Shown here piece after piece: positions 13,336 to 41,696 of a stretch of 41,696 bases of DNA. The notes under the pieces were generated by a model, which made no database searches, was not told the origin of the DNA, and saw only the letters and a list, made by a program, of their open reading frames with translations. The position numbers and the translations under genes were made by a program. The DNA is taken from assembly GCA_019115005.1 (NCBI GenBank), contig DXEK01000110.1, forward strand, positions 1 through 41,696. The letters run 5' to 3'. This DNA comes from Candidatus Fusicatenibacter merdavium. Its GTDB lineage: Bacteria; Bacillota; Clostridia; Lachnospirales; Lachnospiraceae. Positions within the stretch are counted from its first letter, which is position 1, and the number at the start of each line of letters is the position of its first letter.

Positions 13336-13347
13336 AAAAGAGAAAAG

Positions 13348-13398
13348 AAAGCATCGATCAATGATCAGTAACTGTGATGAATGATCGATGCTTTTTTT
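13348..13398 (+). terminator. Intrinsic terminator after trmB
   Basis: AAAGCATCGATCA...TGATCGATGC followed by TTTTTTT. Confidence 0.85.
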
Positions 13399-38526: not shown

Positions 38527-39285
38527 ATGGAACCATTGCTGGAGGTGAGAAACCTTACAAAGATATTTCAGAAAAAGGGACAGACGGAACTTGCCGCGGT
38601 CGATCACCTGAATTTCTGTCTCTATCCCAAAGAGACACTGGGGATCGTGGGGGAATCCGGTTCCGGCAAAAGCACCGTTGCAAAAGCTGTCACCCGGCTG
38701 ATTGATGTGACGGAAGGAGAGATCTTTCTGAAGGGAGAAAACATCACCTTTCTGAAAGGAAGAGAGCTGCGGCGGATCTGCCGGAGCTATCAGATGGTCT
38801 TTCAATCGCCCGCCGGTTCCTTTGACCCGAGAAAGACACTTGGAGACGGGATCGGGGAAAGCCTGAAAAATGCCGGTGTTCCGCGCAAAGAGAGAATAAA
38901 ACGCGTGGAAGAGCTGCTGGATCAGTGCGGTCTCCCGGCAGAGTACGCCCGCCGGTATCCCCGCGAGGTGAGCGGCGGACAGTGCCAGAGAGCAGCAATC
39001 GCCAGAGCGCTGGCGATCGGACCGGAACTTTTGATCTGTGACGAGGCGACCAGCGCCCTGGATGTGACAGTTCAGAAACAGGTGATGGAACTGCTGGCAA
39101 AGCTGAGAAAAGAAAAAGGAATGGCGATCCTGTTCATCTGCCACGACCTGGCCCTGGTACAGCAGTTCTGCGACCGGATCCTGGTCATGAAAGAAGGAAA
39201 ACTTATAGAATCCGGAACGCCGGACGAAGTGATCCGGCATCCCAAAGAAGAATATACAAAACGTCTGATCGACGCGGTTTTATAG
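38527..39285 (+). CDS. ABC transporter ATP-binding protein, NikE/DppF type
   Basis: 252 aa; GESGSGKSTVAKAV; EVSGGQCQRAAIARALAIGPELLICDEATSALDV. Confidence 0.95.
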   Translation: MEPLLEVRNLTKIFQKKGQTELAAVDHLNFCLYPKETLGIVGESGSGKSTVAKAVTRLIDVTEGEIFLKGENITFLKGRELRRICRSYQMVFQSPAGSFDPRKTLGDGIGESLKNAGVPRKERIKRVEELLDQCGLPAEYARRYPREVSGGQCQRAAIARALAIGPELLICDEATSALDVTVQKQVMELLAKLRKEKGMAILFICHDLALVQQFCDRILVMKEGKLIESGTPDEVIRHPKEEYTKRLIDAVL

Positions 39286-39470: not shown

Positions 39471-39590
39471 GTCATATTATGCCAGAAATGCTTCGGACAA
39501 TCAATGAAAAAACTGTAAAGTTTTCGGAAAGAATATTAAAAAAATCCTGAACAAACCGTAAGAATTAGAGAGAATTGTCGTGCGGAAATG

Positions 39591-39866
39591 CTGCGGAGCA
39601 CACCGCACAGCGCTCTTCCGGCCGGGGTGTCGGCGGCATGGACGGTGCGTGTGCGGTTTCGGGATGTAAGTGCATCTAAGACGCTGCAGTTTCCGCTAAA
39701 ACTGCGTGCCCGAACCACAAACTCGCATGCGCTCAGACAGTGTGGTTCGGGCACGCAACGCAGAAACCGCACCGTCTAAGATTTACTAACATCCCTGCAA
39801 ATGCACACGCACCGTCCATGCCGTCGACACCCCGGCCGGAAGAGCACTGTGCGGTGCGCTCTGCAG
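39591..39866 (+). repeat. Palindromic element A (long-arm inverted repeat with structured core)
   Basis: 64-bp arms 39591-39654 and 39803-39866, complementary at 60/64 positions; core contains GTGCCCGAACCACA...TGTGGTTCGGGCAC. Confidence 0.93.
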
Positions 39867-39883
39867 CCTGGCTGCGAGACAAT

Positions 39884-39953
39884 GGTGGGACGGCGACAGT
39901 CATTTGGCGGTGTTTACGTTTTATGGCTGTCGCCAATACCTGTCGCCGCCACC
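39884..39953. repeat. Palindromic element C (middle hairpin with alternative partners)
   Basis: GGTGGgacGGCGACAG...CTGTCGCC...CTGTCGCCgCCACC; one left arm (39892-39899), two possible right arms (39927-39934, 39940-39947). Confidence 0.8.
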
Positions 39954-39971
39954 TTTTCGCTGCCACTCTCA

Positions 39972-40272
39972 GGGCTGGGAACGGGACGGAAGGGAGCGTG
40001 GGCGGTGCGGGACGCGTGGGCGGAGGGCGCAGGGAGGAGCGGCGGGGCGCATTTGCAGGGATGTTAGACCATCTTAGGCGGTGACGCTTTTGCGTTGCCG
40101 GTCCGGGACACACTGTCTGAGCGCCAGCGAGTTTGTGGCCCGGGCCGGCGGTTTTAGCAAAAGCGGCAGCGCCTTAGATGCTCTTACATCCCGAAACCGC
40201 ACCCCGCCGCTCCTCCCTGCGCCCTCCGCCCATGTGTCCCGCACCGCCCACGCTTCTTTCCGTTCCCGGCCC
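39972..40272 (-). repeat. Palindromic element B (inverted relative of element A)
   Basis: Long imperfect G/C-rich arms (GGGCTGGGAACGG...GCGTGGGCGGTGCGGGAC...GGGCGGAGGGCGCAGGGAGGAGCGGCGGGG with complement to 40272); minus-strand core closely resembles the element A core. Confidence 0.92.
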
Positions 40273-40351
40273 GTCCCCCCTATGTTAGTCTTGACTTTTG
40301 GCGGGGGGTTGATAAAATAGGAAGAAACATAAATGGAAAGAGAAGAAAACT

Positions 40352-41527
40352 ATGACAGAATTTCTTGTGAGAAGATTTGTAAAAAATTATCAGAATACAG
40401 AAGATCTTCGAGTCCGTACCAGCTATGGCGTTTTGTCCAGCTGTGTGGGGATTTTCTGTAATGTTCTGCTGTTCGCTGTGAAACTGGCGATCGGATTTCT
40501 GATGAATTCTCTGGCGATCATGGCGGATGCATTCAATAATCTCTCGGACGCCGCCTCCTCGATCATCAGCTTCGTCGGAGTGAAGATGGCCGGAAAGCCG
40601 GCGGATAAGGAGCATCCGTTCGGACATGGACGGATCGAGTATATTTCGGCGCTGATCGTTGCGTTTCTTGTCATCGAAGTGGGGCTTACCTGTCTCCAGA
40701 GTTCTGTTGAGAAACTGTTTCATCCGGAGGATATTACGTTTGACTGGCTCTCTTTTGTGATCCTGCTGCTGTCGGTTGGTGTGAAGCTGTGGATGTCGTT
40801 TTTTAACAGAAAGCTTGGCCGACGGATCGATTCCAAGGTCATGTTGGCAACGGCGGCGGATTCCGCCGGCGATGTGATCGTGACAAGCGCGACACTTGCT
40901 TCTATATTAATATGTTATTTTACGTCGGTGAACATCGATGCGTTTACCGGAGTGGCAGTGTCCCTGCTGGTAATCTGGGCGGGAATTTCCATTGCGAAGG
41001 ATACGCTGGAGCCGCTGATCGGCCAGAGACCGGATCCGGAACTGTATCATCAGATCCAGGAGATGGTGGAGTCCTACGATGGCATCGTGGGAACCCATGA
41101 CCTGATCATTCACAATTACGGACCGAACCGCAGTATGGCTTCGATCCATGCGGAGGTGCCCAGGGAGACGGATATCGAAGTGTCCCATGAGATCATTGAC
41201 CGGATCGAGAGGGATGTTGCCAGAAAACTGAATATTTTTCTGGTCATTCACATGGACCCGGTGGAGATCCATGATGAGAAAGTGCTGGCTGTGAAGGCGA
41301 AACTGAACGGTGTCGTCCAGGCGCTGGATCCGCAGCTGTCTTTTCATGATTTCCGTGTGGTCAACGGGCAGGAACAGATTAATCTGATCTTTGATCTGGT
41401 GACCCCGTTTTCCTATACGCCGGAGGAGGCGGCGAAGGTGGTCCATCAGGTGAAATCTCTTATGAAGGAAGTAGATTCCAGGTATCAGTGTGTGATAACA
41501 GTAGACAAAGATTATCTGACAGAGTAA
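40352..41527 (+). CDS. Cation diffusion facilitator (CDF) family transporter
   Basis: 391 aa; NSLAIMADAFNNLSDAASSIISFVG, DKEHPFGHGRIEYISAL, ATAADSAGDVIVTSATL, long cytosolic C-terminal domain. Confidence 0.95.
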   Translation: MTEFLVRRFVKNYQNTEDLRVRTSYGVLSSCVGIFCNVLLFAVKLAIGFLMNSLAIMADAFNNLSDAASSIISFVGVKMAGKPADKEHPFGHGRIEYISALIVAFLVIEVGLTCLQSSVEKLFHPEDITFDWLSFVILLLSVGVKLWMSFFNRKLGRRIDSKVMLATAADSAGDVIVTSATLASILICYFTSVNIDAFTGVAVSLLVIWAGISIAKDTLEPLIGQRPDPELYHQIQEMVESYDGIVGTHDLIIHNYGPNRSMASIHAEVPRETDIEVSHEIIDRIERDVARKLNIFLVIHMDPVEIHDEKVLAVKAKLNGVVQALDPQLSFHDFRVVNGQEQINLIFDLVTPFSYTPEEAAKVVHQVKSLMKEVDSRYQCVITVDKDYLTE

Positions 41528-41553
41528 AATATAAATGAGACAAGCGACAAAAG

Positions 41554-41588
41554 GTCATAAATTTCATGCTTGCATGAAAATTTATGAC
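41554..41588 (+). terminator. Hairpin downstream of the CDF gene
   Basis: GTCATAAATTTCATGC tt GCATGAAaATTTATGAC. Confidence 0.6.
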
Positions 41589-41696
41589 TTTGTGGAGCGC
41601 AAAACACCGAAAAGTAGCCATTTTTCGAAGAAAAATGAGCGGATTTGAGGTGTTTTCAGGATTGCGGGAGCACGAAGTGCGGAGCAATCCGTGTCT

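Follow-up and report, generated by a model that had tools for sequence, protein, structure and literature searches.

In this study, we have found that two near-perfect hairpins of about 300 nt each, elements A and B, stand in opposite orientation within a 41,696-nucleotide stretch of Candidatus Fusicatenibacter merdavium DNA (the window). We consider it probable that they represent an inverted pair of copies of a non-autonomous mobile DNA palindrome, and that this palindrome belongs to a cross-phylum family defined by the sequence of its hairpin tip. The positions of the elements and of their neighbours are given in Table 1. The cores of A and B, each 154 nt long, align end to end with 82% identity when A is read on the plus strand and B on the minus strand. 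The core coordinates proposed in a first-pass annotation of this DNA are correct, and these conserved cores are only the inner portion of far longer hairpins. The outer arms (39574-39650/39805-39883 in A and 39972-40048/40203-40277 in B) are unrelated in sequence between the two elements, yet in each element they are 83-84% self-complementary.

Table 1. Coordinates of the two hairpin elements, their parts and the neighbouring features in the window
Feature	Position	Strand	Remarks
ABC-transporter ATPase gene, left neighbour	38527..39285	+	PF00005, E 3.6e-29
Inserted block (A, spacer, B)	39563..40281		~719 bp; sister species G003 lacks it at the orthologous site
Element A, entire hairpin	39574..39883	better-folding strand -	inverted repeat, 90-nt arms, 84%; MFE -238; covariance-model match on minus, 130 bits
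Conserved core of A	39651..39804	-	82% identity to core of B
Apex of A, AAACTCGCATGCGCTCAGACAG read on plus	39719..39740	+	pattern match
Spacer between A and B	39886..39952		own small hairpin CGGCGACAGTCATT / AATACCTGTCGCCG at 39891-39948
Element B, entire hairpin	39972..40277	better-folding strand +	inverted repeat, 88-nt arms, 83%; covariance-model match on plus, 124 bits
Conserved core of B	40049..40202	+	G004 has a single element, same place and orientation, core 82% identical
Apex of B, AAACTCGCTGGCGCTCAGACAG read on minus	40113..40134	-	pattern match
Promoter-like site of the cation-efflux gene, outside the element	40291..40318	+	abuts the insertion (B side); surroundings conserved in G001, G003 and G004
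Cation-efflux (CDF) gene, right neighbour	40352..41527	+	PF01545, E 1.7e-44

The orthologous sites of related genomes differ strikingly in content. In the sister species G003, whose efflux protein is 88% identical, the two flanks are joined directly (ACCGTAAGGATC to ATGTTAGTCTTGAC) at the place of the block, while in G001 only about 66 bp stand there. The G001 site (L205, ~1363-1430) forms a small perfect hairpin, CATACGGTCTGTGCA-TTCGC-TGCACAGACCGTAT, which may be left over from a deletion or be an element in its own right. In G004 the outer arms of the single element are wholly different from those of B and are again palindromic. Within the Lachnospiraceae, covariance-model matches occur in 19 of 120 genomes, with 1-21 matches each and none in the others. 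Two genomes, G254 and G033, carry 8 exact-apex copies each, and the 7 that were read per genome are nearly identical within the genome. Taken together, the empty site, the patchy copy number and the dispersed near-identical copies point to mobile DNA. The presence or absence at orthologous sites and the dispersed copies are as expected of a mobile element, with the direction of change unproven: no gain or loss was seen within a species, and G003 could have lost the block rather than never had it. A different origin of the arms, snap-back copying of the local flank, was rejected, as the arms are absent from the empty site of G003.

The elements carry no gene, and most of them are intergenic, with all four classes of orientation relative to genes represented (++35, --23, -+19 and +-15). 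Most are single rather than paired. All 10 close pairs (within 1.3 kb), however, have their better-folding strands directed away from each other, as in A and B, an arrangement with a chance of about 1e-6 if orientation is random and the pairs are independent, three of the pairs being from one genome. A bias toward one replication strand, as judged by GC skew, was seen in a first set of elements (80:40) but was not upheld in a second, independent set (30:19, p 0.15), where it depended on lineage (9:1 in G052 and reversed in G021).

The hairpin tip is widespread. By blastn, relatives of the core are found within the same genus (G004), and farther off the matches are by the apex only. The tip, AAACTCGC..GCTCAGACAG, is found in Bacillota, Bacteroidota, Pseudomonadota, Fusobacteriota and others, mostly at the tips of palindromes. 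The apex pattern, CAAACTCGC-N(0-10)-GCTCAGACAGTG, occurs in at least 120 stretches of GTDB genomes; with its 21 fixed bases, we estimate that about one chance match is expected in this collection. Its carriers among the matches listed include Lachnospiraceae, other Clostridia, Flavobacteriales, Sphingobacterium, Pontibacter, Microscilla, Desulfobulbus, Nitrospirota, Campylobacterales, Gastranaerophilales and others. A slightly looser pattern was detected in 12 of 392 Clostridia genomes, against none for a reversed-pattern control among the genomes listed. As many as 109 of 129 apex sites lie within palindromes that exceed the 99th percentile for random positions in the same loci. Copies in replicons of Ilyobacter (intergenic), Ralstonia (in an unannotated stretch) and Aureibacter (overlapping a short hypothetical ORF) fold around the apex too. 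Variation inside the tip mainly concerns the small terminal stem (GC..GC or GGGAC..GTCCC) between AAACTC and TCAGACAG. The core was not found in phages and plasmids by blastn, IMG/VR held the apex in one contig and a one-base variant in 8, and none was found in E. coli. In three Sphingobacterium genomes of three species (L021, L041 and L123) about 70 bp separate the tip from the same ORF, suggesting that some copies may have been vertically inherited for a long time. At six loci (L016, L024, L035, L048, L062 and L129) the tip stands tens of bases from a contig end, as if hairpins or repeats break assemblies. The motif strings, or anything else specific, were not found in a literature search that covered few subscription papers, which leaves novelty unproven; apparently, the hairpin family is widespread and undescribed.

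On the strand read in the first-pass annotation, the predicted MFE is -238 kcal/mol for A and -242 kcal/mol for B (z -22 and -21 against shuffled sequence). The stem changes between A and B quoted in that annotation are present in the sequence, and its claim that the stems keep pairing holds for the most part: 14 of the 46 core pairs differ between the two elements, by 7 two-sided Watson-Crick swaps, 3 changes with a G-U wobble and 4 with a broken pair, so pairing is kept mostly and not everywhere. The covariation that it claimed from these two copies also holds in a sequence-based alignment of 29 homologous cores, paralogs included. Among the 29 cores, 34 of the 46 stem pairs of the predicted structure show at least one two-sided (compensatory) change and 96.2% of the cells are pairing, and 225 two-sided cells are observed as compared with a mean of 54.6 (sd 6) after shuffling and at most 63 for slid structures. 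The shuffle figures are not probabilities, since there are paralogs among the sequences; the slide control retains relatedness, but the structure was derived from the same sequences. Because the covariation is far above these controls and the tip and internal loops are conserved, A and B are not a decaying duplication, in agreement with the first-pass annotation, and the conservation of the apex AAACTCGCnnGCGCTCAGACAG that it had noticed is borne out with a spread much wider than a single window could show. However, since palindromic arms can also be held alike through templated repair, the covariation is not in itself proof that selection acts on a folded RNA.

Another finding from this study is that the two strands of the hairpin are not equivalent. 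The strand opposite to that of the first-pass annotation is the better-folding one in 109 of 132 elements. When the apex is masked and values are averaged per genome, the same holds for 58 of 75 genomes (p 2e-6); for B, the MFE is -262 on the plus strand versus -242 on the minus strand. On the better-folding strand, T-T, G-T and G-A make up most of the isolated mismatches, and the same positions read A-A, A-C and C-T on the other; the better-folding strand also has a conserved U-G pair (columns 47/108 of alignment A1). A covariance model built from this strand strongly favours it (for example, 106 vs 42 bits at L307). Based on the folding asymmetry, the mismatch types and the conserved U-G pair, we suggest that the molecule bearing the structure, if single-stranded, is probably the CTGTCTGAGC..GCGAGTTT strand, which is minus for A and plus for B, and that the first-pass annotation probably described the complement of the acting strand. 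This asymmetry does not tell RNA from single-stranded DNA. An argument against RNA from a depletion of G-U pairs was dropped, because wobbles do occur on the better-folding strand in alignment A1; it had rested on the isolated mismatches of the other strand alone, an unfair comparison with tRNA. At many loci the better-folding strand, CTGTCTGAGCGAAGCGAGTTT, reads LSERSEF in one frame, a string that occurs in hypothetical proteins, for which spurious ORFs across these hairpins are a likely source; a literature search for it turned up no paper.

The first-pass annotation proposed a folded RNA or single-stranded DNA. On the RNA reading, both hairpins would be transcribed and the apex would be a motif for binding of a protein or ligand. 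The strong covariation, the conserved unpaired motifs and the better folding of one strand with its T-T, G-A and G-T mismatches and conserved U-G pair are all consistent with this reading, and the covarying stems around conserved loops do resemble the structured RNAs of Rfam. However, the comparison with Rfam that it called for gave no family above the gathering threshold and no credible match at a permissive E-value, the only hits being plant miRNA-precursor models that fell far short of their gathering thresholds. Nor are sigma-70-like promoter sites enriched upstream of either strand (31/97 for the better-folding strand vs 40/97 for the other), and a terminator was not found at the window site. 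Orientation to genes is nearly free, with at most a weak bias, which also disfavours a cis-regulatory element or terminator in fixed orientation, and the distribution is patchy, multi-copy and dispersed. We therefore regard a structured non-coding RNA as unlikely; a dedicated RNA gene, though possible, lacks support.

Miniature inverted-repeat elements such as ERIC, NEMIS, RUP and Nezha are short (70-300 bp), non-autonomous and geneless, form long hairpins and lie near genes (PMC3733652). The present elements share with these MITEs the lack of coding capacity, the dispersed copies and the long hairpins. However, MITEs have conserved terminal inverted repeats and usually belong to one lineage, whereas the present family has a conserved tip and ends that vary from lineage to lineage: TATAGATAACGCACTGTAA in G254, ATGTGCAAATGAACGCC in G033 and a border of CAATGTCAGT.. 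/ GTTACTGTTCAC.. in Lachnospiraceae B67_67. The elements could be imagined as MITEs moved through their ends by an ordinary DDE transposase, with the hairpin tip as a passenger. The 19-bp end of G254 would favour such a mechanism, for there are about 199 occurrences of it (control, 2), and elements with other centres are bordered by it too. This explanation is quite unlikely all the same: the ends vary by lineage and the tip is common to several phyla, a passenger not being expected to be the best-conserved sequence. The elements with this end in G254 make up a MITE family with lengths from about 103 bp upward (L246 1501-1603 and L263 1501-1603, among others), in which some members have the hairpin tip at the centre and others have unrelated fillings. 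No target-site duplication was seen at the window site, and in G254 the ends, being palindromic and TA-rich, are ambiguous in this respect. No full-length insertion sequence matching the element ends was identified.

The family behaves not only like MITEs but also like REP sequences and REPINs. The latter two are intergenic, non-coding, imperfect palindromes with many dispersed copies, often set as inverted pairs in one arrangement; REPs are 20-40 bp long and tied to RAYT genes (PMC3116915, PMC3733652, PMC6006769), the partner of a REPIN being a Y1/RAYT transposase (PMC3116915, PMC6006769). The present hairpins are likewise non-coding, intergenic and dispersed, with close pairs in a preferred arrangement (10/10), and in these respects they would fit a REPIN-type element moved by such a transposase (PMC3116915). 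They differ from REPs in their length of about 150-350 bp (about 300 nt in the window), in having neither a RAYT association nor adjacent copies, and in showing a single tip across phyla with variable arms. Y1 transposases are no commoner in carriers (11/19) than in non-carriers (21/33), nor are those of RAYT size (3/19 versus 6/33), five multi-copy carriers (G043, G088, G577, G578 and G579) are without any Y1, and the apex is absent from 20 neighbourhoods of RAYT-like Y1 genes, making the REPIN explanation very unlikely. More generally, no mobilising gene was found beside the elements or correlated with them; clustering of 1191 neighbouring ORFs gave shared families that proved ordinary when looked up (ABC transporter, tRNA synthetase, U32 peptidase and radical SAM). 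REPs are known to sit inside larger palindromes (PMC3733652), so a nested origin of the hairpins is possible.

It is highly improbable that there is no selection at all and that templated repair alone keeps the arms alike, with covariation as a mutational artefact: two-sided changes are already frequent among close paralogs (the sole differing pair of L054/L067 is two-sided) and the elements are GC-rich relative to their own flanks, but copying of arms would erase mismatches and internal loops, which are among the most conserved columns of the core alignment, and the apex is kept across phyla. Few parts are better preserved than the mismatches and loops, which makes it likely that selection acts on a folded single strand. 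Templated repair between the arms may contribute to the covariation as well; by itself it is unlikely to account for the apex and internal loops, and it is a possible contributor in the freely varying parts of the stem.

How might such a mobile palindrome work? We suggest that a trans-acting factor would recognise the hairpin in single-stranded form, most likely as the CTGTCTGAGC..GCGAGTTT strand. This factor would read the apex, the conserved mismatches and the internal loop (GTT/TTTTA), while the remaining stem need only pair. The complementarity of the arms would be held by selection for the hairpin, probably aided by templated (quasipalindrome) repair, in which one arm serves as the template for the other, and the geneless element would be independent of a Y1/RAYT transposase. 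Folded single-stranded DNA is also the form in which the ends of IS200/IS605 elements and the attC sites of integrons are recognised for recombination; their unpaired bases are conserved, and attC stems vary freely. The present hairpins resemble them in their conserved unpaired bases and differ in being much longer and without a link to Y1 transposase. More tentatively, we speculate that one ancient system recognising the hairpin tip on folded single-stranded nucleic acid maintains and disperses these elements across many phyla, requiring the tip and a few internal loops and leaving the arms to evolve freely in concert, through an undescribed enzyme that would not be a known RAYT.

Conserved ends and a cognate transposase are the usual explanation for palindromes interspersed in bacterial genomes. 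In the present family it is the tip that is conserved, from Lachnospiraceae to Bacteroidota, Pseudomonadota and Fusobacteriota, and the arms show massive compensatory change in genomic DNA. The family thus offers a natural test of how covariation arises, be it through templated repair or through selection on RNA or on single-stranded DNA. It also calls for caution in RNA discovery based on covariation and gives a lead toward a mobilising or binding factor.

Close inverted repeats in the rest of the window have arms of 22-24 nt at most. Those at 13344-13398 and 2557-2611 are ordinary-looking hairpins and probably intrinsic terminators. On the plus strand at 41536-41696, 3' of the cation-efflux gene, there is a match to the Clostridiales-1 sRNA (RF01699, 108 bits) that continues past the window end.
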